From Bacteroidota bacterium (GTDB lineage Bacteria > Bacteroidota > Bacteroidia > J057 > JAJTIE01): a stretch of 43,866 bases of DNA. The notes under the pieces were generated by a model. The model saw only the letters and a list, made by a program, of their open reading frames with translations. It was not told the origin of the DNA and ran no database searches. Shown here one piece after another: positions 323-41,834 of this stretch. The translations under genes and the position numbers were made by a program. Every line of letters starts with the position of its first letter. Position 1 is the stretch's first letter. The stretch spans positions 1-43,866 of the forward strand of contig JAJTIE010000023.1 in the NCBI GenBank assembly GCA_021300195.1, in the 5' to 3' direction.

Positions 323-1039
323 TTAGAAGTTGGGCTGATGCTGGCGCTTGCTGTAGAACTGATTGAGGATATCTACTACCTCGGCAGCTGTGTCGGCCAC
401 CACCATCAGGTCCAGGTCTTCGGGGCTTACAAACTTGCGGGCCAGCAGCGTGTTCTGGATCCACTCCAGCAGGCCCTTCCAGTAGCTGCTATCCATCAGT
501 ACAATGGGAAAGCGGTCTATCTTGTAGGTCTGGATAAGGGTAAGGGCCTCAAACAGCTCATCCATGGTGCCGAAGCCGCCGGGCATTACCACAAAGCCCT
601 GTGCGTACTTTACAAACATGACCTTGCGGACGAAGAAGTAGTCGAACTCGATCAGCAGGTCTTTGTCAATATACGGGTTGTACTCCTGCTCAAAGGGCAG
701 CTCGATATTGAGGCCCACCGAATGGGCATTTCCTGCCTGGGCCCCCTTGTTGCCCGCCTCCATCACCCCTGGCCCACCGCCGGTAATAATGCCGTAGCCG
801 TTGTCGGCCAGGGCCTTGGCCACCTCTACGGTCAGCAGGTATTCGGGGCTGTCGGGCTTACTGCGGGCAGAGCCGAAGATGGAGACGCAGGGGCCAATCT
901 TGCTCAGCTTTTCGAAACCCTCTACAAACTCGGCAATGATCTTGAATATCTGCCAGGTATCTACCACGCGGCGGTCTTTCCAGTCTCGGGTTTTGCTGGC
1001 AAAGGTATTGGGAAGGTATCCGTCTCTCGACTTATTCAT
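323..1039 (-). CDS. LOG-family protein (TIGR00730 type)
   Basis: The 238-residue product carries the two signatures of the LOG/'lysine decarboxylase-like' Rossmann family: GGGPGVMEAGNKGA near residue 86 and PGGFGTMDELFE near residue 153. Family members characterised as cytokinin-activating enzymes release the base from nucleoside 5'-monophosphates; others hydrolyse AMP or related nucleotides (family knowledge). The real substrate here is unknown. A region of about 50 residues before the core (DTWQIFKIIAEFVEGFE) is typical of the longer Bacteroidota versions. The start is the ATG at 1039; a TACCTTAG box lies 29 nt upstream. It stands alone, convergent with the TerC-like gene and downstream of htpG on the same strand. 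Confidence 0.85.
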   Translation of the reverse strand: MNKSRDGYLPNTFASKTRDWKDRRVVDTWQIFKIIAEFVEGFEKLSKIGPCVSIFGSARSKPDSPEYLLTVEVAKALADNGYGIITGGGPGVMEAGNKGAQAGNAHSVGLNIELPFEQEYNPYIDKDLLIEFDYFFVRKVMFVKYAQGFVVMPGGFGTMDELFEALTLIQTYKIDRFPIVLMDSSYWKGLLEWIQNTLLARKFVSPEDLDLMVVADTAAEVVDILNQFYSKRQHQPNF

Positions 1040-1068
1040 ACACGTTGGGCGGGTTTCTTAAGTGACCC

Positions 1069-1076
1069 CTAAGGTA
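1069..1076 (-). promoter_or_regulatory. Putative -7 box (TACCTTAG) of the LOG-family gene
   Basis: On the minus strand this reads TACCTTAG, one base off the Bacteroidota -7 consensus TAnnTTTG, and sits 29 nt before the ATG. The same TTAG variant precedes the M16 gene at 22007 and the lipoprotein gene at 13547 at similar distances. No convincing -33 TTG is seen. Confidence 0.35.
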
Positions 1077-1175
1077 CGCAGGCGGTGGCCCAAAGGATGC
1101 AGTAGGGTGTATAAATCACACAACATTCTCATCCTGCTCCGGGTAGCCCACCGCTAGCACTACGGCAGCGGGTGG

Positions 1176-2972: not shown

Positions 2973-3161
2973 CTGGTAGGATCGATTGTTGAATAAGACA
3001 AGGCCACTAGATGGCTCTTTTGATGTGTGCATGCCTAGCAAAAACGGGGCCACCCTGGCACAAACTGCCATATTTACACAGCGCTGGCAGTATGGGTGGG
3101 GGGAGCCGGGCAAGTTTGTCAGATTTTGAATTTATGCCAGAGGCAGTGGGTTATGGGTGGC

Positions 3162-3716
3162 ATGAATCGCGAAAAGTATTTGCCCCTCCAGGTGTCTTTG
3201 CTCACCCTGCTTGCGCTGGTTGCCGCAGGCTTCCTGCTGCTGCAGGCCCCCAGGTGGAAGATAGACGAGCCTGCCGTGCGCATCAGCCTGCAGGGCCCCG
3301 ATGTGGAGGCGGGTGTGGTACGGGGCCTGAGTGGCGCCATCCATTTCTCGCCCAACCTGCTCGATAAATCCTGCTTCGAGGTAGAGGTGGATCTGAAGAC
3401 CCTGGACCTGGGCGACCCGGAGCTGACCGGCAATGCCAGCTCTGCAGACTGGCTGGATGTAGCGCAGTATCCCAGCGCGCGCTTCGCATGCAGGCAGGTG
3501 CTGAAGGCCGAAGATGGCTATGTGGCCCAGGGAGACCTGAGCCTGCATGGCCAGAGCCGACCGGTGGAGATTCCTTTTGTATTCCACGCACAGGGTAGCA
3601 AGCAGGGCGTGTTTGAGGGCGACCTGGTAGTGGCGCGGAGGGACTTTGCGATGAATATGCCGGGCAACACAGCCGATACCCTGCGCGTACACCTGGCGGT
3701 GCCCGTGTATCAGTAG
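3162..3716 (+). CDS. YceI-like domain protein with N-terminal membrane anchor
   Basis: The protein of about 184 residues starts with a short charged head and one hydrophobic helix (VSLLTLLALVAAGFLLL, about residues 9-25), then a lipocalin-like YceI domain: VDLKTLDLGDPELTGNASSADWLDVAQYP followed by SARFACRQV, LSLHGQSRPVEIPF and a final FAMNMPGNTADTLRVHL. YceI proteins bind isoprenoid or other amphiphilic ligands in the periplasm (family knowledge); the ligand here is unknown. Start: ATG 3162 gives a clean signal/anchor sequence; ATG 3153 is also in frame and cannot be excluded. The stop is 4 nt before the next gene, so the two are almost certainly co-transcribed. Confidence 0.85.
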   Translation: MNREKYLPLQVSLLTLLALVAAGFLLLQAPRWKIDEPAVRISLQGPDVEAGVVRGLSGAIHFSPNLLDKSCFEVEVDLKTLDLGDPELTGNASSADWLDVAQYPSARFACRQVLKAEDGYVAQGDLSLHGQSRPVEIPFVFHAQGSKQGVFEGDLVVARRDFAMNMPGNTADTLRVHLAVPVYQ

Positions 3717-3720
3717 CGCC

Positions 3721-4149
3721 ATGCATACGCCCCCTCTACCAGGCAGCAAACCCGATCCGGAAGTGCCTATCGTGCTATTCGACGGGGTATGCACGCTGTG
3801 CAACCGTTCAGTACGCTACATCCTGCGGCACGACCGCCGGGGCCGGATACGTGTGGGCAGCCTGCAGGCCCACACGCAGCTGCTACAGGCGGCGGGCTCG
3901 GCGGGGCCAGATATGAGCTCCATCCTGCTGCTATACCGGGGGCGGGTATACAGGCAGAGCAGTGCCGTGCTGCGCATTGGGCGCATAATGGGTGGATGGC
4001 ACCGGCCCGTGGCCTGGCTAGGCTACCTGCTGCCCCGCCTGCTGCGCGACAGCCTGTACCGCTGGGTAGCCAGCCACCGCTATCGGTGGTTTGGGCAGGA
4101 GGCCAGCTGCCCACTGCCCGATGCAGACACCCGATCTCGTTTTCTGTAA
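3721..4149 (+). CDS. DCC-family thiol-disulfide oxidoreductase (DUF393)
   Basis: The 142-residue protein has the defining motif near its start: PIVLFDGVCTLCNRSVRYIL, with the DGVCxxCN redox-like pair at about residues 24-28. The rest follows the family: GSLQ, a Ser-rich SSILLLYRGRVYRQSSAVL strand region, then RPVAWLGYLLPRLLRDSLYRWVASHRYRWFG. DCC proteins are annotated as predicted thiol-disulfide oxidoreductases; the biochemical role is not well defined. It begins 4 nt after the YceI gene, suggesting an operon in which both act on envelope or lipid-linked substrates (inference). Confidence 0.85.
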   Translation: MHTPPLPGSKPDPEVPIVLFDGVCTLCNRSVRYILRHDRRGRIRVGSLQAHTQLLQAAGSAGPDMSSILLLYRGRVYRQSSAVLRIGRIMGGWHRPVAWLGYLLPRLLRDSLYRWVASHRYRWFGQEASCPLPDADTRSRFL

Positions 4150-4266
4150 GCCCCCACAACAAGCCCGTACCCGTTCGGGCGGGCCCGGACGCAACCAGTA
4201 GACCGGACGCACGCGAACTGCACAAAGCAGGCAGACCCCCCCCCCCGCGCGTGTAGCAGCAGCAAA

Positions 4267-4283
4267 GTGCGCTAAAAGCGCAC
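4267..4283. terminator. Hairpin spanning the stop codon of the small membrane protein
   Basis: GTGCGCT-AAA-AGCGCAC is a perfect 7-bp inverted repeat with a 3-nt loop. It overlaps the TAG stop of the minus-strand gene and lies between two convergent genes. On the minus strand only TTT follows the stem, so it is a weak terminator at best. An 11-base C tract (4236-4246) lies between this hairpin and the end of the DCC gene. Confidence 0.35.
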
Positions 4284-4718
4284 AGCCGGATGACGAATTT
4301 CGCCCCCCGCGTGGCTAATAACCGCCAGGATGATCCACAACACAGACTGTAGCAGGACCGAGGGGATAAAGAGCTTCCGGCTGTGGGGGAATGGCCGCCA
4401 GTGGCCATAGGCAGCAAGCGCCGTAACCAGCAGGCCCACTAGCATGGCCGGCATAAAGCTTTCGCTCAGCTCCTCGTGCAGGCTTACCAGCCTGCCCACA
4501 TCGGCCAGCTGGCGGCTTTCGGCCAGGTGCTCGCGCGCCAGCTCGCCCGTCTTGTGCGCCAGTAGCACAAAACCATAGCCCAGCAGGCTGAGGAGGTAGT
4601 GCAGCCGCAGGCCAAAGGCGTGCCGCCGAAAGAAAGCCCAGGTACCCAGCAGGATAGAGGTGAGGATAAGGTAGGTGGGCACGTGGTTGACCAGTAGGTG
4701 GAGGTATACGCCATTCAT
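4272..4718 (-). CDS. Small four-helix membrane protein with LLVNHVP N-terminus, function unknown
   Basis: The 148-residue product has about four hydrophobic helices: residues 5-27, 38-53, 88-107 and 120-140. The N-terminus MNGVYLHLLVNHVPTYLIL and the GELAREH and LHEELSESFMPAML segments resemble small Bacteroidota/Acidobacteria membrane proteins with an HxLLNHxP start (DUF2231-like), in which paired helices carry conserved His and Glu residues (recalled from family patterns, not searched). Function is unknown. The frame remains open upstream, but the extra 59 residues are low-complexity Arg/Ala and unlike a protein, so ATG 4718 is preferred. It follows ricT by 61 bp on the same strand. Confidence 0.65.
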   Translation of the reverse strand: MNGVYLHLLVNHVPTYLILTSILLGTWAFFRRHAFGLRLHYLLSLLGYGFVLLAHKTGELAREHLAESRQLADVGRLVSLHEELSESFMPAMLVGLLVTALAAYGHWRPFPHSRKLFIPSVLLQSVLWIILAVISHAGGEIRHPAVRF

Positions 4719-4779
4719 AGGGTATCGATATCTAGTTGGTGTGATAAGCCCGGAGCAGATCCCGGCTCGCTTGCGGCTG

Positions 4780-5898
4780 CTATGCGGTACCCGCTGGCCT
4801 GCGGGGGCCGCGTTTTTTTCGCTTATCCTTGCTGCCCCTGCTCTTTCGGGCCTGGCGCTGCATGCGCTCGTGCAGGTCGCTCTGGCCCACCACATCTACA
4901 AAGTCGGTCATCTTCTTGCTTTCACGGGCGGCCACTTCTTCCTCTGGCAGCAGGCTGGGGGGTTTTATCCCTTTTTTATTCAGCTGTATCAGCTCTTGCA
5001 CCCGGTCAGCGTTCAGCATGGTCCAGTTGCTATCTCCGCCGTAGCTGAACCACATTTGGCGACGGAAGATGTCCGTCTTCTGCAGGTAGGCCTTACCGAG
5101 CTCGGTTTGTATCTCCCGCACTTTGGGTATGTCGGTCAGGGCATCCATATAGGCCTCCAGCTCATAGTTCAGGCAGCACTTCAGGCGCCCACACAGGCCG
5201 GTTATCTTGGTTGGGTTCAGGCTCAGGTTCTGGTAGCGGGCAGCACCGGTGCCTACACTTTTGAAGTCGGTAAGCCAGCTGCTGCAGCACAGCTCGCGCC
5301 CACAGGCACCTATGCCGCCTACCAGGGCTGCCTCTTGTCTGGATCCGATCTGCTTCATCTCCACCCGCACCTTAAACTCGTTGGCCAGCCTGCGGATCAG
5401 CTCGCGGAAGTCTACCCGGCTCTCGGAGGTGTAGTAGAAAATAGCCTTTCCGCCGTCGGCCTGAAACTCCACGTCGCTCATCTTCATATCCAGGCCCAGC
5501 TCGCCCACCAGCTGGCGGGTGCGGAACAGGCACTCGGCTTCTTGGTCGCGCAGGGCCTGCAGCCGCTGCCTGTCCGCCTCGCTGGCCATGCGCACCATGG
5601 TGCCTACGTGCTTGGCATTCACCTTTTTCTTTTTCATCTGTAGCAGCACCAGCTCGCCGCCCATGGTTATCTCGCCCACATCCCAGCCTCGGTCGCTCTC
5701 CACCACCACCAGGTCTCCGGTTACTACATCCAGGCCCTTTTCGTTGCGATAGAAGCCCTTTCGGGTTGTCTTGAAGCGGATTTCGTAGATATTCCGATGC
5801 TCGGGGGTATCGGGCGGCAGCATGTTGCCCAACCAGTCATATACATTCAGCTTGCTGCTGCACGCGGTGCTACAGCCGCCGTCTTTGCCACATCCCAT
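4780..5898 (-). CDS. ricT: RicT/YaaT-like PSP1 domain protein
   Basis: The 372-residue protein contains the PSP1 C-terminal domain (DFRELIRRLANEF followed by KVRVEMKQIGSRQEAALVGG) with the two Cys clusters GACGRELCC and LCGRLKCCLNYE, plus an N-terminal Cys group (Cys3, Cys9, Cys13). In Bacillus, RicT (YaaT) works with RicA and RicF in an Fe-S-binding complex that affects RNA maturation and phosphorelay. In Bacteroidota RicA/RicF partners are not obvious, so the role may differ. The C-terminus is a basic Lys/Arg tail (KSRGSKDKRKKRGPRR), consistent with RNA contact (inference). A perfect TAGCTTTG box lies just after the dapF stop codon, 92 nt upstream. Confidence 0.88.
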   Translation of the reverse strand: MGCGKDGGCSTACSSKLNVYDWLGNMLPPDTPEHRNIYEIRFKTTRKGFYRNEKGLDVVTGDLVVVESDRGWDVGEITMGGELVLLQMKKKKVNAKHVGTMVRMASEADRQRLQALRDQEAECLFRTRQLVGELGLDMKMSDVEFQADGGKAIFYYTSESRVDFRELIRRLANEFKVRVEMKQIGSRQEAALVGGIGACGRELCCSSWLTDFKSVGTGAARYQNLSLNPTKITGLCGRLKCCLNYELEAYMDALTDIPKVREIQTELGKAYLQKTDIFRRQMWFSYGGDSNWTMLNADRVQELIQLNKKGIKPPSLLPEEEVAARESKKMTDFVDVVGQSDLHERMQRQARKSRGSKDKRKKRGPRRPAGTA

Positions 5899-5990
5899 GT
5901 TCTTTTCTATTCGGTTACGCGCTTGGCCTACAGAGGGCCGGGTGTATGCAGCTGCACACCACCCGCCATGGCCCCTGCGCCGAAGCTACG

Positions 5991-5998
5991 CAAAGCTA
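5991..5998 (-). promoter_or_regulatory. Putative -7 box (TAGCTTTG) upstream of ricT
   Basis: An exact TAnnTTTG match on the minus strand, beginning right after the dapF TAG stop codon. It would give ricT its own promoter with a leader of roughly 85-90 nt, although read-through from dapF is also possible. Confidence 0.4.
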
Positions 5999-6772
5999 CT
6001 AATTTCGGTCAATCCATTCACCCCGGAATACACACAGGGCGGGGCCGCCCAGCCAGATGCCCGATGTGCGAAACTCGACCGTGAGCAGCCCACCCGCTGT
6101 GTGCAGCTGCACGCTGGGGCCGGCATAGCCCCGCAGCTGGCGGTATACACAGGCTACGGCCGTAGCGCCGGTTCCGCAGCTGTAGGTCTCGTCCTCTACA
6201 CCACGCTCGTAGGTGCGGATGCGCAGCTGTCCGGGTGCCAGCTCCTCGGCAAAGTTTACATTGGTGCCCACTGCACGGAAACGATCGGAATAACGCACAG
6301 CCCTGCCCTCGGTGTACACATCCAGGGCCTGTACCCCCTGGCACCACCGCACGTAGTGCGGGCTACCGGTATCCAGGTAGTAGGCCTCGGGGCCCAGGGC
6401 CTCTATCTGGCTTACGGCACCCATCTTTAGCCAGATCTGGTCTTGCTCCATGCTGGCCTCGTGCAGGCCGTCTATGGCCACAAAGTGGGCCTGCTGCTGC
6501 ACCAGCCCCAGGTGCTGGGCAAAGCGCACTACCGCACGCCCACCATTGCCACACATGCTGCCGGGCCTGCCGTCGGCATTGTAGTAGTGCATGGCAAAGT
6601 CTGTGTCGGCATCGGAGCCCAGCAGGATCACCCCGTCTGCCCCCACCCCAAAGCGGCGGTGGCACAGCTGCTCGAAGAATACATAGTCATCCGGATCCAC
6701 CTGCCCGCTGCGATTATCAATCAGCACAAAGTCATTACCCGTGGCCTGATACTTGTAGAATGTGAGCCCCAT
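5999..6772 (-). CDS. dapF: Diaminopimelate epimerase
   Basis: Converts LL-diaminopimelate to meso-diaminopimelate for peptidoglycan and lysine. The 257 residues show the family start FYKYQATGNDFVLIDN and both catalytic cysteines: Cys74 in SMCGNGGRA and Cys199 in SCGTGATA, with the substrate-binding RRFGVGADG and ERGVEDET segments. The frame runs 42 codons upstream of ATG 6772, but that extension has no dapF homology and would run into rodA. A perfect TAACTTTG promoter box ends 3 nt before this ATG, which both supports the start and predicts an mRNA with essentially no leader. Divergent from rodA with only 37 bp between start codons. Confidence 0.96.
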   Translation of the reverse strand: MGLTFYKYQATGNDFVLIDNRSGQVDPDDYVFFEQLCHRRFGVGADGVILLGSDADTDFAMHYYNADGRPGSMCGNGGRAVVRFAQHLGLVQQQAHFVAIDGLHEASMEQDQIWLKMGAVSQIEALGPEAYYLDTGSPHYVRWCQGVQALDVYTEGRAVRYSDRFRAVGTNVNFAEELAPGQLRIRTYERGVEDETYSCGTGATAVACVYRQLRGYAGPSVQLHTAGGLLTVEFRTSGIWLGGPALCVFRGEWIDRN

Positions 6773-6775
6773 GCA

Positions 6776-6783
6776 CAAAGTTA
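6776..6783 (-). promoter_or_regulatory. -7 promoter box (TAACTTTG) of dapF, leaderless geometry
   Basis: Exact TAnnTTTG on the minus strand, ending 3 nt before the dapF ATG. Since transcription in Bacteroidota starts a few nt after this box, the transcript should begin at or within a few nt of the start codon. Confidence 0.65.
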
Positions 6784-6796
6784 CCCAAGAGTATGG

Positions 6797-6804
6797 TATC
6801 TTTA
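6797..6804 (+). promoter_or_regulatory. Putative -7 box (TATCTTTA) of rodA
   Basis: Seven-eighths match to TAnnTTTG (final A instead of G), ending 5 nt before the rodA ATG at 6810. It lies only 13 nt from the oppositely oriented dapF box, so the two RNA polymerase footprints must overlap. Confidence 0.45.
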
Positions 6805-6809
6805 GCACC

Positions 6810-8132
6810 ATGTCGAGATCAGACAAGCCCGAGCTACGACTAGACTGGCTAACGGTGGCCCTTTTCGGGGTATTTGTGCTGTTTGGCTGGTTTAACATCT
6901 ACGCCGCCAGTGGGGCCTCGGGTGCCGGGTTTTGGACAGACCTGATGGACATCGGCCAGCCACAGGGCAAGCAGTTTATATTCATCCTCATCTCGGCCGT
7001 GCTGTGTTTTGTTACGCTCACGCTGGATATAAAACTGGTGGAGTGGGCGGCCTATGGGGTATATGGGGTTTCCATCTTCCTGTGCATACTCGTGCTGTTT
7101 GTGGGCAAGGAGATCAACGGAGCCAAGGCCTGGTTCAGCTTCGGTGGCTTTGGCGTTCAGCCCTCCGAGTTTGCCAAAGTGGGCACGGTGCTGGCGGTAG
7201 CCAGGTACATGAGCCGCCACGGCTTCAGCCTGGGTAGCCTGAAGGACAAGCTCTACCTGCTGGGCATCATTGGGCTGCCCATGGCCCTCATCATCCTGCA
7301 AAAAGACACGGGCACAGCCCTGGTGTTTTCGGCCTTTATCTTCATGCTACTGCGCGAGGGGCTTTCGCTGGCCTTTTTTGGCCTACTCATTGCCCTGCTG
7401 GCAGTGGCCCTGCTCTCTATGGCAGGCGTAGGCACGCTCTATCTGGCAGGTTTCATGATTTTCCTGCTACTGCTGTACTACTTCCGGCGGCCCATTGGCA
7501 AGTTTGTGAGCAATCTGGGTTTCTACCTCGACTTTCGGGGGCGCAGCTCCCTGGTGCCGGCCGTGGTGGTGGCCGGCCTGATCGTGTGGTCGCTGAGCAT
7601 AAACCTGGTGATCGGGCAGCTGAAGCCCCACCAGCAAGACCGGATCAAGGCGCTCTTCAACCCCGACTTTGACCCCATGCGCACCAACTGGAACACCCAC
7701 CAGAGCAAAATAGCCATAGGCAGCGGGGGCCTGTGGGGCAAGGGCTTCATGAATGGTACCCAAACCAAATATGACTACGTGCCCCAGCAGCATACCGACT
7801 TTATCTTTTGCACCGTGGGCGAGGAGTTTGGCTGGCTGGGCAGCTCGCTGGTTATCGTGCTGTTCTTCGTTTTGCTGTGGCAGCTCACCTACCTTTCGGA
7901 GAATACCAAGACGCGCTTTGGCCGTGTGCTGGGCTATTCGGTTACCGCCATTTTCTTCTTTCATATCCTGGTAAACATTGCCATGACCATTGGCCTGGCA
8001 CCTGTTATCGGCATCCCCCTACCCTTTTTTAGCTATGGGGGCAGTAGCCTGATGACCTTCTCGGTGCTGATCTTCCTGGTGCTGAACAGTCATGCCAACC
8101 GCGTGCACATCCTGTCTCAGGAGCGTGCATAA
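6810..8132 (+). CDS. rodA: RodA: SEDS-family peptidoglycan glycosyltransferase
   Basis: Integral membrane enzyme that polymerises lipid II during cell elongation, partnering a class B penicillin-binding protein. The 440-residue sequence has about ten membrane helices and SEDS hallmarks: GKEINGAKAWFSFGGFGVQPSEFAK, the QQHTDFIFCTVGEEFGWLGS segment and the terminal PLPFFSYGGSSLM loop. The distinct DxxR-like and long periplasmic loop (LKPHQQDRIKALFNPDFDP) favour RodA over FtsW. Start ATG 6810 is chosen over a GTG/ATG further upstream because the latter would overlap dapF and its promoter. No mreB/mreC/pbp2 neighbours lie in the window; the divergent dapF supplies the same peptidoglycan pathway. 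Confidence 0.93.
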   Translation: MSRSDKPELRLDWLTVALFGVFVLFGWFNIYAASGASGAGFWTDLMDIGQPQGKQFIFILISAVLCFVTLTLDIKLVEWAAYGVYGVSIFLCILVLFVGKEINGAKAWFSFGGFGVQPSEFAKVGTVLAVARYMSRHGFSLGSLKDKLYLLGIIGLPMALIILQKDTGTALVFSAFIFMLLREGLSLAFFGLLIALLAVALLSMAGVGTLYLAGFMIFLLLLYYFRRPIGKFVSNLGFYLDFRGRSSLVPAVVVAGLIVWSLSINLVIGQLKPHQQDRIKALFNPDFDPMRTNWNTHQSKIAIGSGGLWGKGFMNGTQTKYDYVPQQHTDFIFCTVGEEFGWLGSSLVIVLFFVLLWQLTYLSENTKTRFGRVLGYSVTAIFFFHILVNIAMTIGLAPVIGIPLPFFSYGGSSLMTFSVLIFLVLNSHANRVHILSQERA

Positions 8133-18056: not shown

Positions 18057-18968
18057 CTAGCTTAGCTTGTAGCGGATGGTGTAGTAGCACACCTGGTTTC
18101 CGGCGGCTCGGTCTATAGGCTCGAAGCGCCAGTTCTTCCGCACATAGTCTGCAGCCTCCAGGCTGGGGGCGCGCAGGCCTGGCGTTAGGCCCTGCACTGG
18201 CTCAAAGGCCAGCACCCGGCCATCGGGGGCAATCACTACCTTGTACTTCACCTTGCCATCTGATCGGAAGTTGGGATTGGGCTGATCGGCCTGAATAACA
18301 CCACGGGAGCCCAGGCCGTCGAAGCCACTGCCGCCACCGCCACCCCCACCGGCCTCGTACAGGCCACGGGGATCCAGGTTGTCGGTATTGGGCCCACCCA
18401 TATTACCCACACCGGTTCCGTTTCCGTGGTTGCTCCCCACGTCTCCGGGTGTGCCGCCTGTGCGGGCCGTGCCCGGGCCCGAGGCATCTGCCAGGGGCTG
18501 GCTTACGTTCTCGTGTACGATGCGGCGGCGGGGGGGTGTTTTTACGGGGCTGGCGTGGCTCTGGGTAGCCAGCTCGGTTTTGGCTGGGGCCGTACGGGCC
18601 GGGGCTGCTGCGGGCGCATCTCGGGGCACGGTGGCCAGGCGGTCTGGGTCCTTGGCAGGGGTCTCAAAATTATTTATGTCCTTACTCCCCTCCTCGCGGT
18701 TTCCATAGTCGGCCGGCGGTGCAGCCTCAGCGGAGGCAGCGGCCCCACCCAGGCCTGCTGTGCCGGTACCCAGCTCCGCCTCAAACTCAATAATACCCAC
18801 TGTGTGATACCGCTTTTGAGCATCCTCATCGCCCTTGTAGGGAAAGTGGATGTGCATGAGGTGAAAAGCCACATACAGCAGTAGGGCAAACACACTGGTA
18901 TAGGCCAGGCTGCGGGTGCGGTACTGGCGAGCCAGCTCGGGGTCTATGCCCGGGTAAAAGGTTTCCAT
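18057..18968 (-). CDS. TonB-like energy transducer
   Basis: 303 residues: cytoplasmic head, one membrane helix (about residues 22-38, SVFALLLYVAFHLMHIHF), a low-complexity periplasmic stretch rich in Ala/Pro then Gly (EAGGGGGGGSGFDG), and a TonB C-terminal domain (KYKVVIAPDGRVLAFEPVQGL, YVRKNWRFEPIDRA, YYTIRYKL). TonB proteins couple the proton gradient, via ExbB/ExbD, to outer-membrane receptors. The linker is Gly-rich rather than the classical Pro-Lys type. exbB/exbD are not adjacent. A decayed copy of this gene's first ~60 bp and its upstream region lies at 22346-22427. Confidence 0.85.
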   Translation of the reverse strand: METFYPGIDPELARQYRTRSLAYTSVFALLLYVAFHLMHIHFPYKGDEDAQKRYHTVGIIEFEAELGTGTAGLGGAAASAEAAPPADYGNREEGSKDINNFETPAKDPDRLATVPRDAPAAAPARTAPAKTELATQSHASPVKTPPRRRIVHENVSQPLADASGPGTARTGGTPGDVGSNHGNGTGVGNMGGPNTDNLDPRGLYEAGGGGGGGSGFDGLGSRGVIQADQPNPNFRSDGKVKYKVVIAPDGRVLAFEPVQGLTPGLRAPSLEAADYVRKNWRFEPIDRAAGNQVCYYTIRYKLS

Positions 18969-19103
18969 GACTAAAGGTGCTTCTTCATTTTACCGCAGGA
19001 TAAAGGTATAATACAGTAGCCTGAGCGACCAACAAAAAGCCACACACCCACACTACGAAAATGGGAACCCCCGCAGTACCAACTGTGGATAACATGAGCG
19101 CAT

Positions 19104-19132
19104 AAAAAAGAAGGGGAGGCTAATGCCCCCCC
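19104..19132 (-). terminator. Rho-independent terminator after the first M16 gene
   Basis: GGGGAGGC-TAAT-GCCCCCCC forms an 8-bp stem (one G-T pair) at 19113-19132, and on the minus strand it is followed by TTC and six T residues (19109-19104). It separates the M16 gene from tonB. Confidence 0.85.
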
Positions 19133-19223
19133 TGTCTAGTGGAATCGAATTATTTGGTCCTGAACTAACTAGCCACAGATCAGCAGCTATGGAAGAGACA
19201 GAACCGAAGCAAGACACGCATTT

Positions 19224-22007
19224 CTACTTTGCCTTTTCCGGATTCAAGATAATCTGAATGGTATGCTCTGTATCCAGGTAGCGCTTCGCCGCGCTTTGTA
19301 TAATCTTGGCGTTCAGCTTGTCTATCGCTTTTGTTCCATCCTGTCCCAGGTTTTTGATATCCCAGCCGTATCGCTGATATTCTATCAGCTGCTCCAGCCA
19401 CCACTTGTTTTCTTTCACCTTCAGCTCATAGTTGCGGCGCATGGTTTCGCGTACTTTCTGCAGGTTCGTGTCACTGGGGCCATTTTTGGCAAGTTTTTTC
19501 ATCTCCTCCATAGCGGCTTCTGCTAGCTCAGCTACTCGGTCGGGGGCACAGAAGAAGAAAATCATTGAACTAAAGTAAGGCTTGGGATAACTTACTTTTG
19601 ATCCCTGTAGCATTGCACCATATATGCCACCCCGTTTCTCGCGCAATTCTTCGCGTATCATAATATCCAGCACGTCAAAGGTGGCCTTCTGCTCCAGCAG
19701 GTACTGCTGCGTATAGTCCTCAGCCCCAAGGTTTGCTAGCATTACCAGGCTTTTGGGGTCCTCTCCTTTGGTTAGCTCTCGGCGCATAGGGCCCTGCACC
19801 AGTTTGCGCTCTCTCGCCTTAACTTCGGTGGCTGTGCCTGCCGGAATAGAGGCGATATACTGCTGGATGAGCGGCCTGATCTGTACCGGATCGAAGCTAC
19901 CGGTAATGACGTAGGTGAAGCCAGCAGCATGGGCAAACAGGCTGCGATAGTGCACCATAGCTTGGTCCGGATCCATCTTGGCATAATCCTCAGCCTTTAG
20001 ATTCCGATAGCGCAGCTGCCCATCAGCCAGAATATCAGTATACTGACGGAAGAAATACTGCTCCGGCAGTCTGTCTGCATCTTCTAGATCTTGTTGCTTT
20101 TTATGCCGCCAGTTTTCGAAAGCAGTTCTATCCGATCTGGACTGGGTATGGGTAAGGTATATCAGCTGCATGGCTGTTTCCAGGTCCTTCTTGGTGCTGC
20201 TCGCGTTAAGGCCGTGTGTACTCTTGCCGATGTAGGGTGTAACGCTCACTTCCTTTCCGGCAAGTTTTTTCTCCAGGGCTAGCTGGTCAAAAGTTCCAAG
20301 GCCGCTTTCTGCAACGATGCTTGCCGCGTTATCTGCATCCAGGTACGCTGGGTCTTCAAAGCAGCTGGTTCCGCCCGGCGAGTAGGCTTGGATCAGAATC
20401 TCGTCCTGCTTGAAATCTGTCGGCTTTAGCAGCACGCGGGCACCGTTGGAGAGGGTAAGCTCGGTTACACCAATCGTGGTGTGGGTTTTCTCGGCTACAA
20501 TTTTACCTTCTTTCGGTTTTTCTGCTATTAGTGGCCGGTCTATGTCCACCTTTGCTAGCGGTTGTATGTCTTGTTTCCGTACCTGTTCCAGCAGGGCCAG
20601 GGTAGCAGCCTTGGTGGGCATTACAGCCCCTGGCTTGTCGGGCAGCAGATAGCCTACCGCAGGCACATTGCTCTTTAGCAGCTCTTTTATGTATTCATTC
20701 ACCTCGACTAGCGTGGTCTGTGGCATTAGTTCTTTTGCCAGTGCCATTTCGGCCTCAAAGCCCGGCATTGCCACACCCTTCAGGTGATACTCTACTAATT
20801 CGTCTACCAGCTGTTCGCTATCTGTTGCATCACGCTCGGCATATCGCTTTTCTAGCATGCCCATTACACTCAGCTTTCCGCGCTCCAGTTCATCGGGCTG
20901 CAGGCCGTATCGGCGCATGCGCTCCAGTTCGGTCACCAGTGCTTCCAGTCCACGGGCTGCGCCTCCATCTGCCAGGTTGGCCTGCAGGTACCAGCTATCC
21001 CAGTTATCGGCTACAAACTGGCCAATGCCAGTATTGGCTGTTATAAAGGGTGGATTGGCCTCTCGTGCCCTTGCCGCCAGCCGCTCCTGCAGGGCTGTGC
21101 TGGCCAGGTAGCGCAGCAGCAGCAGGCGGTAGTCCTCTCGGGTGCGTGTAACCAGGGGGGGCACCAGGTACGCAACGCTAAGCATGGAAAAGGGCGATTC
21201 AGCATCTTTTATCAGCTGTACCCGGGGCTCTGTCCAGGCTTGAATCGGATAGGAAGTGGGCATGGGGCCCTTTCGTGCTTCCAGCGGGCCAAAAGTTTCT
21301 TTTACTTTCCGCTCCATTTCCGCAGGGTCAAAGTCGCCTACCGCTATCACCGCCATCAGCTCGGGCCGATACCAGGTGCGGTAATAGTGGAGGAGTGTAT
21401 CGTGCGCAAAGCCTTCCAGCACTTCCTTTTTCCCAATCGGCATACGCTCGGTAAAGCGGCTTCCAGCCGCATACAGATGATAGGTACTATCCGTGAGACG
21501 CTCAGATAGGCCCATGTGCGTGCGCATTTCCTCCAGCACTACACCGCGTTCTTTATCTATCTCCTCGGGCTCCATTTGTACCCGCTGTGCCCAGTCGGCC
21601 AGTATCAGCAGGCCATTGTCTACTATATCAGGCATGTCAGTGGGGATGAGCAGCTGGTACACCGTCCGGTCGAAGGTGGTGTAGGCATTCAGGTCGGCGC
21701 CAAACTGAGTGCCGATGCCTTCCAGATAGTCTATGAGGCTCTGCTTCTCAAAGTTTTTGGTGCCATTAAAGCACATGTGCTCGGTAAAGTGGGCCAGGCC
21801 ATTCTGCCCATCCAGTTCCTGCAGGCTGCCTGCCTTCAGGGCCAGGCGTAGCTGGGCACGCGCCTCGGGCTTTTTGTTCTGTTTGATGTAATAGGTAAGG
21901 CCATTAGGCAGTACGCCGGTACGCACGCTGGGGTCGAGCGGTAGTGCCCGCGGCTGTGCTACGCCTGCAAGCGGAAGCCACAGTAGCACCAGTAAGAGTT
22001 TCTTCAT
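19224..22007 (-). CDS. M16-family zinc peptidase (first of a tandem pair)
   Basis: 927 residues with a Sec signal (MKKLLLVLLWLPLAGVAQ). Two M16 (insulinase/pitrilysin-like) units lie in one chain. The N-terminal unit carries the inverted zinc motif HFTEH (His73, Glu76, His77) and the downstream Glu of KERGVV near residue 153. The second half, from about residue 500, is the catalytically silent partner (no HxxEH). Such periplasmic proteins degrade or process peptides; Bacteroidota often have several. About half of its residues match the downstream paralogue; the first mature ~60 residues are almost identical. Upstream are a TATCTTAG box (29 nt before ATG) and a TAAGTTTA box (5 nt before ATG). 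Confidence 0.92.
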   Translation of the reverse strand: MKKLLLVLLWLPLAGVAQPRALPLDPSVRTGVLPNGLTYYIKQNKKPEARAQLRLALKAGSLQELDGQNGLAHFTEHMCFNGTKNFEKQSLIDYLEGIGTQFGADLNAYTTFDRTVYQLLIPTDMPDIVDNGLLILADWAQRVQMEPEEIDKERGVVLEEMRTHMGLSERLTDSTYHLYAAGSRFTERMPIGKKEVLEGFAHDTLLHYYRTWYRPELMAVIAVGDFDPAEMERKVKETFGPLEARKGPMPTSYPIQAWTEPRVQLIKDAESPFSMLSVAYLVPPLVTRTREDYRLLLLRYLASTALQERLAARAREANPPFITANTGIGQFVADNWDSWYLQANLADGGAARGLEALVTELERMRRYGLQPDELERGKLSVMGMLEKRYAERDATDSEQLVDELVEYHLKGVAMPGFEAEMALAKELMPQTTLVEVNEYIKELLKSNVPAVGYLLPDKPGAVMPTKAATLALLEQVRKQDIQPLAKVDIDRPLIAEKPKEGKIVAEKTHTTIGVTELTLSNGARVLLKPTDFKQDEILIQAYSPGGTSCFEDPAYLDADNAASIVAESGLGTFDQLALEKKLAGKEVSVTPYIGKSTHGLNASSTKKDLETAMQLIYLTHTQSRSDRTAFENWRHKKQQDLEDADRLPEQYFFRQYTDILADGQLRYRNLKAEDYAKMDPDQAMVHYRSLFAHAAGFTYVITGSFDPVQIRPLIQQYIASIPAGTATEVKARERKLVQGPMRRELTKGEDPKSLVMLANLGAEDYTQQYLLEQKATFDVLDIMIREELREKRGGIYGAMLQGSKVSYPKPYFSSMIFFFCAPDRVAELAEAAMEEMKKLAKNGPSDTNLQKVRETMRRNYELKVKENKWWLEQLIEYQRYGWDIKNLGQDGTKAIDKLNAKIIQSAAKRYLDTEHTIQIILNPEKAK

Positions 22008-22036
22008 ACGTGTAAACTTAAGTGTTGAACAATAAG

Positions 22037-22044
22037 CTAAGATA
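22037..22044 (-). promoter_or_regulatory. Putative -7 box (TATCTTAG) of the first M16 gene
   Basis: Minus-strand TATCTTAG, 29 nt before ATG 22007, the same octamer as upstream of the lipoprotein gene at 13547. A second near-match, TAAGTTTA at 22013-22020, ends 5 nt before the ATG; which one is used cannot be decided from sequence. Confidence 0.35.
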
Positions 22045-22280
22045 TAGAAGCATGTCTATTACGCCCCTCTGTTCATCATATTCATTTTGTTAAATAGCGT
22101 TAAACAACTCTTTGAGATTAAAGAGGTAGTTTTTTAAGAATAAAAATTTGGAACAAAACAATACCACAGATACCTATTCGGTAATGACAGTGCCACCTGC
22201 ACCCAACCCGGGGTATGCACTACCTGTAGGCTTACAGTACAGAAAGTATGGGCTGCGGCGGTGGATACGGGCGGCCAGCT

Positions 22281-22350
22281 GTCCGGCCGGACTAGGCGCA
22301 TGCCTGCTTCTACCCGGGCTTCGAAAAGCACGGAGCGCTGCCGGCCCAGG
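22281..22350 (-). pseudogene. Decayed fragment of the mtaB 3' region
   Basis: Aligned without gaps to mtaB 25681-25740, 22291-22350 matches at 49 of 60 positions (82%). In the mtaB reading frame it reads GRQRSVLFEARVEAGMRL, versus GQQRPVLFEDKVEAGMRL in MtaB. Similarity fades below about 22281. The piece is in the same orientation as mtaB and joins the tonB-like fragment at CCAGG. It cannot encode a functional protein. Confidence 0.8.
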
Positions 22351-22427
22351 CTGCGGGTGCAGTACTGGCCAGCCAGCTCGGGGGGTCTATGCCTGGACAA
22401 AAGGTTTCCATGCTAAAGGTGCTTCTT
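22346..22427 (-). pseudogene. Decayed fragment of the tonB 5' end and start region
   Basis: Aligned to 18905-18985, 75 of 80 ungapped positions are identical (94%), with a 2-base insertion and a 1-base deletion in total. It covers codons for about the first 20 residues of the TonB-like protein (PELAxQYxTRSL is readable), the start codon and about 17 bp upstream. The insertion in the G-run breaks the frame directly behind the start, so it is dead. Confidence 0.85.
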
Positions 22428-22531
22428 AATGCCTATTTTCAGAGCCCGGGCACCAAGCGGACAAACGGCACAATGGACAAAGACCAGATAGCCATCCAGC
22501 ACAAGAGTGAGAAGTGACATGCGGCGTGGGC

Positions 22532-22560
22532 AAAAAAAACCCGGTACCATAAGTACCGGG
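22532..22560 (-). terminator. Rho-independent terminator after the second M16 gene
   Basis: CCCGGTAC (22540-22547) and GTACCGGG (22553-22560) make a perfect 8-bp stem with a 5-nt loop; on the minus strand eight T residues follow (22539-22532). It begins 10 nt after the stop codon of the second M16 gene. Confidence 0.9.
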
Positions 22561-22570
22561 CCCTGGCGTA

Positions 22571-25351
22571 CTATTCCGCCGGCTCAGGCTTCAGCACCAG
22601 TTGCACCATCCGCTTTGTATCGAAGTAGGTGGCTGCTGCTTTCTGTATTCGCTTCGCATTCAGCTTTTTCAACTCATCTGGCAGCTGGCGGTCAATGGTT
22701 TCAAAGTCCCAGGCGTATTGGCCAAAAGTCTTCTGCTTTCTGTGCCACCAGGCATTTTCCTTCAGGCTAGTTTCCAGGCCGCGCCTGTAGGTTTCGGTTA
22801 CCTTGTTCAGGTCTGTAGCCGTGGGGCCATTTTTCTGCAAGTTCTCAATCTCCTCTGTGCAGGCCGCTATCAGCTCTTCCACCCGGGCTGGGTCGCAGTA
22901 AAAAGAAATGGTGGTTGAGTAGCTGGCTACAGGCCACTTTTGCAGGCCACCGCTACAGCCTACCCCATACACGCCGCCCTTTTCCTCGCGTATGTTTTCG
23001 CGCAGTTTTATGCTCAGCACCTCGCAGGTGGCATCCAGCGACAGCATGTTTGCGTAGGTAAAGGGCTCCTGACCCAAAAACCTGAGCTGCACATAGCTCT
23101 TGGGGTCTCTTCCTTTTCTAAAGGTTTTTTCCAGCGGGCCGGGTATGGTGCGCACCTTGCGGTCTACCCACTTCTGCGGCTCACCCTGGGGTATGGCGGC
23201 CAGGTAGGTTGTTATCAGGGGTTTCAAGTCCGCTGGCCGGAAGCTGCCGGTAAACACGTAGGTGAAGCCCGCTGCGTGGCTGAACAGACGCCTGTACTGC
23301 TCGTGGATGGTAGCCAGGGACAAGCGCTCCAGGTCGGCAGCCTGTATAGCCTGCTTACGCACATGACCAGCGTAGAGCACTGGCTGGCTCTGGCGCCGGA
23401 AGTAGGACTCCGGGTTTCTGTCTGCGTCCGCCAGCTGCTGCTGCTCCTGCAGCTTCCAGTTCTGATAGGCCACCTCATCCACCCGGGGGCTAAGCTGGGT
23501 AAGGTAGACAAGCTGGAAGGCGGTCTCCAAGTCCTTTTGTGTGCTGGAGCCGGACAGCCCATGCTCGTATTCGGCCACATAGGGCGAGATGGAAACTTGC
23601 TTGCCGGCCAGCTTCTTTTCCAGGGCAATCCGGTCAAAACTTCCCAGCCCCATCTGGCCCACCAGGTTGTCAGAGAAGTATGCGTTCAGGTAGGTATCGT
23701 CGGGAAAAACACTGATGCCGCCGTCTGCATAGGCAGTGATCATAATTTCATCCTGCTTAAAATCTGTTGGCTTCAGCAGCACGCGTGCGCCGTTGGAGAG
23801 CTTCAGCTCGGTAATGCCTGTAGCCTTGTACACGCGCTCGGATACAATGGCGCCGGGCTGGGCAAGCTGGGAAATGAGGGGGGCTGTGTTGTCTTCTTCT
23901 AGCAGAGGTTCTATCTGCTCGGCCCGCACGCGTGCTAGCAGGTCCACCAGTTCCTGGTCTGTTGGCAGGTCTACCCCCGGCTTGTCTGGTACCAGGAATA
24001 CAACCGCATCCTGCTGAGGCAGCAAGGCGGAGGCGGCAAAGGCATTTGCCTCGGAGAGCGTGATGCCAGACATAAGCTGAGTGAGGTACTGGCTTTCCTG
24101 CTCTATGCCTACCATGGCTTCGCCCTTCAGGAAATACTCGATTAGCTCTTCGGCAAAATCATCGCTTTCGGTACTATTTCGTTCGGCATATCGCTTATCC
24201 ACAAAGCCCTTCAGCTCAGCCTTGGCACGCTCCAGCTCGCCAGGCAAGAGGCCATGACGACGCATACGCTCGGCCTCGCGCACCAGCTGCTCCAGGGCTT
24301 CTCGTCCTGCGTCCTGGGTAACGGTGGCGGTTGCCACCAGGGTGCGCAGGGGGCCCAGAAAGTTGGAAAAACCAGCCCCCGCTTCTGAGAAAGGCGCACC
24401 TGGCTGCAGGCCTAGCACCTGTAGCCGCTCGGTAAGTGCGGCACCCACGATATGCCGCAAGATACCGGCGCGGTAATCATCCAGGGTTTTGGTCACCGTT
24501 TTGGGCCGAAAGAAGTAGAGCTGAGCCATCGATACCGGAGACTCAGCATCTTTCATAGACAGTACCCGGGGGCTATCCCAGGCCGGAACCGAATAGTCTT
24601 GGTATTGGGGGCCCGACTTGGGGCTGAGTACGGAAAACTCCTTCCGGATTTTCGCCGCCATCTCGTCTGGGTCAAAGTCTCCGACAGCAATGACCGCCAT
24701 CAGCTCGGGCCTATACCAGGTATGATAAAAATGGCGGAGGGTATCGGGGTCAAAGCCCGATAGTACTTCGGTCTTTCCGATCACCTTCCGGTCCAAGTAG
24801 CGAGAACCTTCCAAAAAAGTAGCGAGAACACTATCCCCCAGCCGATCTCCAAAACCCCTGCGCGTACGCCACTCTTCTATCACCACGCCACGCTCCTTGT
24901 TTATCTCCTCCGTCTCCAGGCGTAGGCGCTGGGCCCAGTCCGACAGGATGAGCAGGCCGTTGTCTACAATTTCGTGTTCATCCGTAGGGATGCGCAGCAT
25001 GTAGACGGTGCGCTCGTAGCTTGTATAAGCATTCAGGTGGGGGCCAAACTCAGTACCTATGCCCTCCAGATAGTCCACCAGTACCTGTTTTTCGAAGTGC
25101 TCGGTACCGTTGAAGCACATGTGCTCGGTAAAGTGGGCCAGGCCGTTCTGGCCGTCCAGTTCCTGCAGGCTGCCTGCCTTCAGGGCCAGGCGTAGCTCGG
25201 CACGTGCCTCAGGCTTTTTGTTTTGCTTTACGTAGTAGGTAAGGCCGTTGGGCAGCACGCCGGTACGCACGCTGGGGTCTAGGGGCAGCACGCCAGACTG
25301 GGCAAACACGGTGCCCAGCAGCATCGTGCAGGCGAGGAGGAATCTTCTCAT
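22571..25351 (-). CDS. M16-family zinc peptidase (second of a tandem pair)
   Basis: 926 residues, with signal peptide MRRFLLACTMLLGTVFAQ and the same architecture as its neighbour. The zinc motif HFTEH sits at identical positions (His73, Glu76, His77), with KERGVV further on. The N-terminal mature region (LPLDPSVRTGVLPNGLTYY onward, through HMCFNGT) differs from the paralogue at about 3 of 63 residues, while the C-terminal half is only loosely similar. The pair may cleave different peptides or form a mixed assembly (inference). It lies 136 bp downstream of mtaB and ends in a strong terminator. Confidence 0.92.
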   Translation of the reverse strand: MRRFLLACTMLLGTVFAQSGVLPLDPSVRTGVLPNGLTYYVKQNKKPEARAELRLALKAGSLQELDGQNGLAHFTEHMCFNGTEHFEKQVLVDYLEGIGTEFGPHLNAYTSYERTVYMLRIPTDEHEIVDNGLLILSDWAQRLRLETEEINKERGVVIEEWRTRRGFGDRLGDSVLATFLEGSRYLDRKVIGKTEVLSGFDPDTLRHFYHTWYRPELMAVIAVGDFDPDEMAAKIRKEFSVLSPKSGPQYQDYSVPAWDSPRVLSMKDAESPVSMAQLYFFRPKTVTKTLDDYRAGILRHIVGAALTERLQVLGLQPGAPFSEAGAGFSNFLGPLRTLVATATVTQDAGREALEQLVREAERMRRHGLLPGELERAKAELKGFVDKRYAERNSTESDDFAEELIEYFLKGEAMVGIEQESQYLTQLMSGITLSEANAFAASALLPQQDAVVFLVPDKPGVDLPTDQELVDLLARVRAEQIEPLLEEDNTAPLISQLAQPGAIVSERVYKATGITELKLSNGARVLLKPTDFKQDEIMITAYADGGISVFPDDTYLNAYFSDNLVGQMGLGSFDRIALEKKLAGKQVSISPYVAEYEHGLSGSSTQKDLETAFQLVYLTQLSPRVDEVAYQNWKLQEQQQLADADRNPESYFRRQSQPVLYAGHVRKQAIQAADLERLSLATIHEQYRRLFSHAAGFTYVFTGSFRPADLKPLITTYLAAIPQGEPQKWVDRKVRTIPGPLEKTFRKGRDPKSYVQLRFLGQEPFTYANMLSLDATCEVLSIKLRENIREEKGGVYGVGCSGGLQKWPVASYSTTISFYCDPARVEELIAACTEEIENLQKNGPTATDLNKVTETYRRGLETSLKENAWWHRKQKTFGQYAWDFETIDRQLPDELKKLNAKRIQKAAATYFDTKRMVQLVLKPEPAE

Positions 25352-25487
25352 AGCGTAAAAAGGTGGGTGAATAGAAACTTCAAGGGCCGAAAATACGGAT
25401 TGTTTCAGGATGTACGATACCGGTCATTCCGGGGCTGGCTACCCATTGGGACGAACGGCTACGCCCGTGTATGGGCGGCTGCCTGCC

Positions 25488-26852
25488 CTACGGCAGGGGC
25501 ATCTCCGTCCGCGCCGAGGATGTTCTCTCTTGGGGTGTGTGCAGGGCCGCGGGCGAGGATAGTGGGCTCTCACCCGCCACATAACCGTCTGGGTGGATGG
25601 CCGCCAGGCGTACCGGCTGTAGGCCATTGGCCCGGGCATCGGCAGTGGGGAGGGCAACCCGCACGTAGTTGTCCGTCCAGCCCAGGCGCATGCCTGCCTC
25701 CACCTTGTCTTCAAAAAGCACGGGGCGCTGCTGCCCCAGGTGGGCGGCGTAGTGGGCGTGTTTCAGCTTTTCGCTCAGCATGCGCAGGCGGTCGGCGCGC
25801 TGCTGGCGTACGGGCAGGGGCACATGGCCCGGCAGCTCTGCCCCCAGGGTATTGGTTCGCTCGCTGAAGGGGAACACATGCAGGTAGCTGACGGGCAGGT
25901 CCTTTATAAAGTGGTAGGTTTCTTCAAAATAATCGTCTGTTTCGCCGGAAAAACCGACCAATACATCGCAGCCGATGGCCGCATGTGGCATGGCTTGCTT
26001 GATGCGCTGTACCCGCCCGGCATACAGCTCGCGGCGGTAGCGGCGGCGCATGATGGCCAGCACGGCATTGCTGCCACTCTGTAGCGGGAGGTGAAAATGC
26101 GGCATAAAGCGCTGGCTATGGGCCACAAAGTCGATCATCTCGTCGGTCAGCAGGTTTGGTTCGATGCTGCTGATGCGAATACGCGGCAGCTCGGTCAGCT
26201 CAGCATCCAGCAGGCGTATGAGGTCGATCAGCTTGGCCTCTTGGCCCACGCCATAGTCGCCAATGTTGATGCCCGTGAGCACAATCTCCTGCACGCCCTG
26301 CTGCACCAGGTGGCGGGCCTGGGCCAGGATGCGCTCGGGGGTGTCGCTGCGGCTGTGGCCTCGCGCCAGGGGGATGGTGCAGAAGGTGCACTTGTAGTCG
26401 CATCCGTCTTGTACTTTCAGGAAGGCCCGGGTGCGCTCCTCGGTGCTGTAGCTGGCCACATAGTCGCGCGTTTCGGCTATGGTGCAGTGGTGCACCTCGG
26501 CCTGGCGGTTTTTCTGAAATTCCGTTATGTATTCAAACAGGCGAAACTTCTCTGCGGCCCCCAGCACAGCATCCACCCCGGGTATGGCGGCTATCTCCTG
26601 CGGTTTCAGCTGGGCGTAGCAGCCCACCACGGCCACAAAGGCATCGGGGTTTTGCTTCAGGGCCTGGCGCACCACCTTGCGGCATTTCTTGTCGGCCTGC
26701 TCGGTTACGGAGCAGGTGTTGATCACGTACACATCCGCTGGCTCGCGGAAGGGCACGGCACGAAAGCCCTGCGCCTCAAACTGCCGACCAAGCGTGGCCG
26801 TCTCGCTGAAGTTAAGCTTGCAGCCCAGTGTGTAAAATCCGACCGTAGGCAT
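25488..26852 (-). CDS. mtaB: tRNA t6A37 methylthiotransferase MtaB
   Basis: Radical-SAM enzyme that adds a methylthio group to t6A at position 37 of tRNAs reading ANN codons. The 454 residues show the UPF0004 domain with its three cluster cysteines (TLGCKLNFSE, VINTCSVTEQADKKC, VVGCYAQLKP), the radical-SAM CxxxCxxC in DGCDYKCTFCTIPLARGHSRS, and a TRAM-like end. The TLGCK-L-N-x-x-E start distinguishes MtaB from MiaB/RimO. A C-terminal tail of about 30 residues (SPLSSPAALHTPQERTSS...) is unusual and low-complexity. A perfect TACCTTTG box lies 14 nt upstream of the ATG. Part of its 3' end is duplicated in the remnant at 22281-22350. Confidence 0.93.
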   Translation of the reverse strand: MPTVGFYTLGCKLNFSETATLGRQFEAQGFRAVPFREPADVYVINTCSVTEQADKKCRKVVRQALKQNPDAFVAVVGCYAQLKPQEIAAIPGVDAVLGAAEKFRLFEYITEFQKNRQAEVHHCTIAETRDYVASYSTEERTRAFLKVQDGCDYKCTFCTIPLARGHSRSDTPERILAQARHLVQQGVQEIVLTGINIGDYGVGQEAKLIDLIRLLDAELTELPRIRISSIEPNLLTDEMIDFVAHSQRFMPHFHLPLQSGSNAVLAIMRRRYRRELYAGRVQRIKQAMPHAAIGCDVLVGFSGETDDYFEETYHFIKDLPVSYLHVFPFSERTNTLGAELPGHVPLPVRQQRADRLRMLSEKLKHAHYAAHLGQQRPVLFEDKVEAGMRLGWTDNYVRVALPTADARANGLQPVRLAAIHPDGYVAGESPLSSPAALHTPQERTSSARTEMPLP

Positions 26853-40301: not shown

Positions 40302-41834
40302 TTATTCCAGCACGGTAAACTCCACCCGCCGGTTTGCCGCCCTGTCTGCTCCGCTAGCCGGTGCCTGCAGGGGCTGGGCTTCGCCCATGCCCTCGGCCTC
40401 CACCCGGGCTGCCGCTATGCCGTGCAGCAGCAGGTAGGCGCACACCGCATTGGCACGCCCCAGGCTCAGCCGGCGGTTGTAGTCTTCGCTGCCTAGCTCG
40501 TCCGTATGCCCGGTAACGCGGATGCGCCAGCTGGGCTGTGCGGCTAGCAGCTGCACCAGGCGGTCTAGTTCGGCCCGGCTCTCGGGCCGCAGGTCGGTGC
40601 TGTCTGTACCAAAAAACACATTCCGCAGCGCAATGGCCCTGCCGGGCTGCACCCGCTGCAGGTACAAGTCTCGCTGCAGGCTGGGCTCCGTATCGGGCAT
40701 CAGGTGCAGGTCCAGCTCCTCGCCCAGCGGGTAGTAGCCGGGTGCCTGGGCACTCAGGCCATACCAGACGTAGGGCGGAAGGGCTACCTGATAGGCACCT
40801 GTGCCGGGCCTACTGCGGGCCATGCCTGCGGGTGTGCCTGTCTGCAGGTCTGTATACACAATCTCGGCCTGCAGGGGCAGGCCTGTATCCAGGTCGCGCA
40901 CGGTGCCGTGCACCAGCAGCGTGGGGGTGGGTAGTAGCGTGTCGGGCAGGGCCATGCGGTAGATGTCGGGCAGGGCCGCGCTGTCGCTATGGACGTAGTA
41001 CAGCCAGCTGCCCCTGGCGGCAATGCTGGGGTAGGCCTCAAAGCCCGGCGTATTGAGCGGGGGGCCCAGGTTCAGCGGCTGGCTCCAGTGTGTCCAGCTA
41101 TCGTCCAGCCTTCGGCTCATGTACAGGTCGAAACTGCCATGGCCGTCGCTACGCCCCTCGCTGGCAAAGTACAGCGTCTGGTTATCCGGTGCCAAAAAGG
41201 CCGACACCTCTCGGCCCGGGCTATTGATCTGCGGGCCCAGGTTCAGCGGCTGGCTATAGCTGCTATCGGGCAGGCGGAAGCTGGCGTACAGGTCTAGCCC
41301 ACCCAGGCTAGTACTATCTTCTATACCTAGCAGCAGGGTCTGCCCATCGGCAGCCAGGTAGCCGGTATACCACTCGGGGTCCAGGTTTCGGTAGTTTCGC
41401 ACATGCAGGGGCCTGGGCATACCCCAGCCGCCCGCTGTGCGCAGGCTGTAGCTAAAGCCGGGCAGTAGCACCCGCCCACCCTGTACATACACTCCCATCA
41501 GCATCAGGGTGTTTCCATCGGGGGTGATAGCCAGGTGGGCATTGGGGTAATAGTTGTTCACCGGGGGGCCAATGTTCAGGCTAGGGCCCCAGCCATCCCC
41601 CTGGCGGGGGCACAGGTAGATGTCCTGATCCTCGGGGTTTACCCGATGGCCCAGGTTGCGCGGGTGGCGGGCTCGCACAAAGTACAGCTCTTGCCCATCT
41701 GCCGTTACAAAGGGCATCAGCTCCACGGCCTCGGTGTTTACCCCCTGGCCCAGCCGCTCGGGCTGCTGGGCCAGGCTGGGCCACACCAGTAGCCATCCCG
41801 ATAGCAATACGCGTAAAAGGGCTGAACACTGCAT
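40302..41834 (-). CDS. OmpA-family protein with PD40 repeats (PorE-like)
   Basis: 510 residues from ATG 41834, with a signal peptide (LLRVLLSGWLLVWPSLAQ). Three parts: a PD40/WD40-like beta-propeller (repeats with AITPDGNTLMLMG, LAADGQTLLLG, LAPDNQTLYFASEGR and FEAYPSIAARGSWLYYV); a carboxypeptidase-regulatory-like fold (VHGTVRDLDTGLPLQAEIVYTD); and an OmpA peptidoglycan-binding end (NVFFGTDSTDLRPESRAELDRL, TGHTDELGSEDYNRRLSLGRA, ANRRVEFTVL). PorE of the Porphyromonas type IX system has the same PD40-CRD-OmpA order, plus TPRs that I do not see here. With porT at 33.5 kb this is suggestive, but many Bacteroidota have several such proteins. Confidence 0.85.
   Translation of the reverse strand: MQCSALLRVLLSGWLLVWPSLAQQPERLGQGVNTEAVELMPFVTADGQELYFVRARHPRNLGHRVNPEDQDIYLCPRQGDGWGPSLNIGPPVNNYYPNAHLAITPDGNTLMLMGVYVQGGRVLLPGFSYSLRTAGGWGMPRPLHVRNYRNLDPEWYTGYLAADGQTLLLGIEDSTSLGGLDLYASFRLPDSSYSQPLNLGPQINSPGREVSAFLAPDNQTLYFASEGRSDGHGSFDLYMSRRLDDSWTHWSQPLNLGPPLNTPGFEAYPSIAARGSWLYYVHSDSAALPDIYRMALPDTLLPTPTLLVHGTVRDLDTGLPLQAEIVYTDLQTGTPAGMARSRPGTGAYQVALPPYVWYGLSAQAPGYYPLGEELDLHLMPDTEPSLQRDLYLQRVQPGRAIALRNVFFGTDSTDLRPESRAELDRLVQLLAAQPSWRIRVTGHTDELGSEDYNRRLSLGRANAVCAYLLLHGIAAARVEAEGMGEAQPLQAPASGADRAANRRVEFTVLE

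Follow-up and report, generated by a model that had tools for sequence, protein, structure and literature searches.

Between two adjacent M16 peptidase genes in the stretch of Bacteroidota DNA analysed here (43,866 nucleotides, hereafter the window), positions 22277-22430 carry a chimera in which a decayed copy of part of mtaB is fused to a decayed copy of the start of a TonB-like gene. The two pieces are ordered and oriented as in a direct tandem-duplication joint and are much less diverged from their sources than the two M16 genes are from each other. We tentatively read the chimera as a non-functional remnant of such a joint, left by a later rearrangement of an already duplicated M16 locus whose extra copies have since been lost, a history that the sequence makes plausible if still somewhat short of probable.

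The chimeric sequence and its setting

The four genes concerned are all minus-strand genes and follow one another as mtaB (25488-26852), M16b (22571-25351), M16a (19224-22007) and tonB (18057-18968). The products of M16a (927 aa) and M16b (926 aa) both match PF00675 and PF05193 above cut-off and carry the HxxEH motif as HFTEH, which identifies them as M16 peptidases; they share 51% of their residues, and the genes share 58% of their nucleotides. The mtaB gene is identified by the MtaB equivalog TIGR01579 (422 bits against a cut-off of 357). The tonB ORF (303 aa) has relatives in 18 of the 22 genomes of the order and no Pfam or NCBIfam match, its name being carried over from an earlier note on this DNA. 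Both pieces of the chimera lie in the 22008-22570 spacer that separates M16a from M16b. At the M16b end of this spacer a terminator-like stem-loop on the minus strand (CCCGGTAC-TTATG-GTACCGGG followed by eight T, 22540-22560) was read off the sequence itself and is absent from the output of a scan. At the other end, the part directly upstream of M16a (22008-22147) has a GC content of only 29%, against 59% for the window and 55% for the spacer upstream of M16b, and is probably the M16a promoter region.

In local alignments, positions 22277-22350 match 25667-25740 of mtaB, approximately codons 371-395, at 60 of 74 positions without gaps (E 5e-13, minus strand), and the score of 78 compares with 29 for the best of 200 first-order Markov shuffles. 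The likeness to mtaB fades over some 60 further bases (22248-22363 versus 25638-25753, 71%), weak resemblance reaching to about 22221, and MtaB residues 367-426 are matched at 22197-22364 with an E value of 2.7e-4. The tonB copy, also on the minus strand, spans 22346-22430 and corresponds to 18905-18988, i.e., about 20 bp of upstream sequence and codons 1-21; 77 of 83 ungapped columns are identical (92.8%, E 2e-24), and the score is 124, against 35 for the best shuffle. Relative to its source this piece has a 2-bp insertion and a 1-bp deletion (89.5% identity with gaps counted), and its likeness to tonB ends abruptly at 22430. The two pieces overlap in the pentamer CCAGG (22346-22350), which is common to mtaB, tonB and the scar. 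When the spacer 22008-22570 was used as a query against the whole genome (71 contigs), only the mtaB and tonB sources matched, and no further copy of the scar was found. The chimera described in the earlier note is thus borne out, down to its count of 49 identities in 60 positions for mtaB and the shared CCAGG, and both pieces exceed shuffled sequence by far, where a score no better than that would by its own terms have refuted it; its tonB alignment of 75/80, given as ungapped, has to be replaced by one with indels.

All three codon positions are affected by the changes in the mtaB piece, and frameshifts interrupt the tonB piece, so that, judged from the sequence, the pieces seem to behave like dead, unselected DNA. 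None of the ORFs that cross the scar (22148-22429 and 22389-22517 on the plus strand, 22134-22400 on the minus strand) has a Pfam or NCBIfam family at or near cut-off, and those portions of the plus-strand ORFs that lie beyond the copied pieces occur only once in the genome. The predicted RNA fold of the scar is no better than that of shuffled sequence (z between -0.9 and +0.5), and a search of Rfam gave no match apart from a distant tRNA. There is therefore no sign of a function, and the element looks like an ordinary pseudogene scar.

An error in the assembly might also account for the chimera, the genome being a draft of 71 contigs. Divergence of the pieces from their sources amounts to 7-19%, with indels, and no more than 5 bp are shared at the joint; sequences so unlike are not normally joined by assemblers, and we regard this explanation as barely credible.

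Geometry of the joint

Read along the coding strand, the scar starts with the upstream region and codons 1-21 of tonB and continues with mtaB from codon 371 onward, so that tonB codon ~21 is fused to mtaB codon ~371. Both pieces are oriented like their sources, and their order is that of a direct tandem-duplication joint; the pattern is what a duplication running from inside mtaB through M16 into tonB would be expected to leave. A short shared sequence is present in the form of the 5-bp CCAGG, and two copies of the intervening sequence, the sister genes M16a and M16b (support 100), flank the joint. The distance between corresponding positions of the two units is 3344-3347 inside M16, 3390 for mtaB and 3441-3443 for tonB, and with offsets this close the pieces occupy almost equivalent positions in the two units. 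What does not fit is age, as the joint and the units differ in divergence (0.89 for M16 versus 0.08 and 0.22 for the scar) and the flanks cannot be aligned. Unequal ages speak against one event behind both scar and M16 pair but leave the identity of the scar as a duplication joint untouched. The earlier claim that the scar marks a tandem-duplication junction is accordingly supported in part, by order, orientation and microhomology, while the event recorded is not simply the one that produced the M16 pair.

Divergence of the scar and of the M16 pair

A tree of 53 rows places M16a and M16b as sisters (SH-aLRT 100), and the next branch, also with support 100, is the M16 gene of G001, the sole other family member in the comparison set and one that belongs to a different genus. 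By this tree the pair is a lineage-specific duplicate. In G001 a single M16 gene of this type is present, with neither scar piece near it and with tonB and mtaB on other contigs; the three genes lie apart there, so the gene order is not shared. A search of GTDB species genomes for a closer relative gave a best match of 41%.

At four-fold degenerate sites M16a and M16b are 48% identical, where 28% is expected from composition, which corresponds to a distance of about 0.9 (Jukes-Cantor, JC, 0.89). The JC distances of the scar pieces from their sources are 0.08 (0.03-0.17) for tonB and 0.22 (0.12-0.38) for mtaB, and the scar is less diverged than the M16 four-fold sites with Fisher p values of about 1e-14 and 3e-7. 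Between our genome and G001, four-fold identity is 40-44% for M16 and 56% for mtaB; the M16 split, at 48%, is thus nearly as old as the genera. Nucleotide identity over mtaB codons 371-395 is 56% between the two genera, as against 81% between the scar and the resident mtaB. Most of the histories considered below derive the pieces from the tonB and mtaB of the same lineage, and the data agree, the pieces being far closer to the resident genes than are those of the other genus. Outside the pieces, the scar spacer could not be aligned with the spacers beside tonB and mtaB. These results uphold the puzzle raised in the earlier note, that the M16 proteins differ far more than the tonB piece does. 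The note's further suggestion that the two pieces (82% versus 94%) have separate ages finds only marginal evidence (p = 0.03).

A single event followed by neutral decay of both the M16 pair and the scar is rejected: divergence at the silent sites of M16 far exceeds that of the scar, and the flanks are unalignable. The sequences leave two readings of the difference, in which the scar either would be younger than the M16 divergence or would consist of short patches kept alike by gene conversion.

Possible histories of the locus

The first of these, an older M16 pair and a younger scar, was already offered in the earlier note and fits the sequence. The M16 gene between tonB and mtaB would have been duplicated in this lineage before the scar event. 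In a later rearrangement of the resulting tonB-M16-M16-mtaB stretch, illegitimate recombination at short homology would have fused the tonB end (codon ~21) with the interior of mtaB (codon ~371) at CCAGG, and the extra copies would afterwards have been lost by illegitimate deletion, so that a single copy of either M16 gene and a decaying joint remained. Had the copies been lost by homologous recombination, the joint would have been erased or alignable flanks would remain; such flanks are absent, so both losses must have been illegitimate. For the same reason the large tonB-M16-M16-mtaB block proposed earlier is possible only with illegitimate deletion of both lost copies. Homologous recombination collapsing a four-M16 array was rejected, as it predicts flanks like 18989-19223 and 25352-25610, which do not align. 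Two points count against a later rearrangement. It requires one duplication and two losses, none of which is seen among the genomes compared, and the near-matching spacing of the pieces is a prediction of a single old duplication.

That single old duplication, of mtaB-3'/M16/tonB-5', would have produced both the M16 pair and the joint, with short-patch gene conversion from the intact genes keeping patches of the scar, and of the 5' part of M16, alike as the remainder diverged; we consider it possible, if doubtful. One event would yield the whole gene order as well as the offsets. A further patch of raised identity does exist between the M16 genes, at M16a codons 46-75 (21783-21872, minus strand, about 93% of nucleotides), where the codon is identical for 24 of 29 shared residues, against 216 of 431 elsewhere (p 8e-4 before correction for the choice of window), and it has no counterpart in comparisons with G001, although conserved residues around the zinc motif may account for part of it. 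The duplication would also need repeated conversion of pieces of about 80 bp in DNA without visible use, and the tonB piece ends sharply at 22430. That conversion into a dead scar kept such short pieces readable long after the genes had lost half of their shared residues seems to us unlikely.

Alternatively, repair of a break in the M16 spacer may have copied in some 80-130 bp from mtaB and 84 bp from tonB, both lying a few kilobases off. Such a templated insertion would be one event and would account for the sharp ends, the unalignable flanks and an age below that of the M16 pair. It leaves to chance both the tandem order with direct orientation, about 1 in 8 by simple counting, and the choice of exactly the genes on either side of the M16 pair, and the mtaB end fades instead of stopping; on balance we hold it to be improbable.

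The pair might, finally, only look old, if one tandem duplication of moderate age was followed by replacement of one M16 body with DNA of a related species. The mosaic of identities along the locus (93% in the tonB piece, about 50-60% of nucleotides in the M16 body, 82-93% in M16 codons 31-75, 81% in the mtaB piece) is what suggests this. Neither M16 gene departs from the usual codon usage of the genome (z -0.5 and -0.3), on which ground a foreign origin of one of them was rejected; M16a and M16b are mutually closest among all sequences compared, and M16 codons 1-30 together with the upstream spacer would call for a second replacement. A replaced M16 body is, like an assembly error, unlikely, and we give it very little credence.

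Other repeats and known duplication joints

Among local repeats in 408 kb of the genome's own sequence (sampled stretches), no other scar of this kind stood out, while other tandem genes and repeats did. Contig C12 (L178) contains, at 83-7619, many direct repeats of ~190-300 bp, 76-87% alike, in 7.6 kb of coding sequence, and these are a long repeat protein or a repeat gene array. Two tandem genes at 6769-11737 of contig C19 (L185), with products of 683 and 741 aa, form another old pair (about 69-79% of nucleotides in patches, offsets 2543-2597), where no scar stood out. The 290-bp inverted repeat of contig C10 (L176; 213-497 and 13202-13491, 89% identical, the second copy non-coding) is possibly a small dispersed element. 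The window itself has a 42-bp direct repeat (41043-41084 and 41214-41255, 88%) and a 32-bp imperfect palindrome (41744-41775).

The scar described here is an ordinary genome scar of a known kind with an unusual age puzzle. It alters nothing that is known about M16 peptidases, TonB or MtaB; as a readable joint beside an old gene pair it is a natural example of the scars that tandem duplications leave, and a warning that such a joint need not date from the duplication that made the adjacent genes.

Adjacent full-length M16 genes are also found in G002 and at several Bacteroidales loci, and tandem M16 pairs are in general common, this type of M16 gene recurring in pairs or triplets in other Bacteroidota (loci L116 and L100 [G002, contig C34], and L077-L093); the tree makes the G002 pair a separate duplication. 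The literature found on comparable scars consists of general works. Small variable segments (PMC2884548) are likewise short (20-500 bp), located near genes and possibly products of illegitimate recombination, but they are defined by comparing strains within one species, whereas the present scar is known from one genome. Tandem-duplication joints at short homology are documented in bacterial gene duplication and amplification in Acinetobacter baylyi (PMC9997567) and Pseudomonas fluorescens (PMC7661048). Like the scar, these have direct tandem order and a novel joint between two genes, and the 0-5 bp of shared sequence at the illegitimate duplication joints of A. baylyi (PMC9997567) includes the 5 bp seen here. 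The A. baylyi and P. fluorescens cases are fresh, with large (12-290 kb) and identical units, while here only the neighbourhood of the joint is still alike and the M16 copies are down to 51% amino acid identity.
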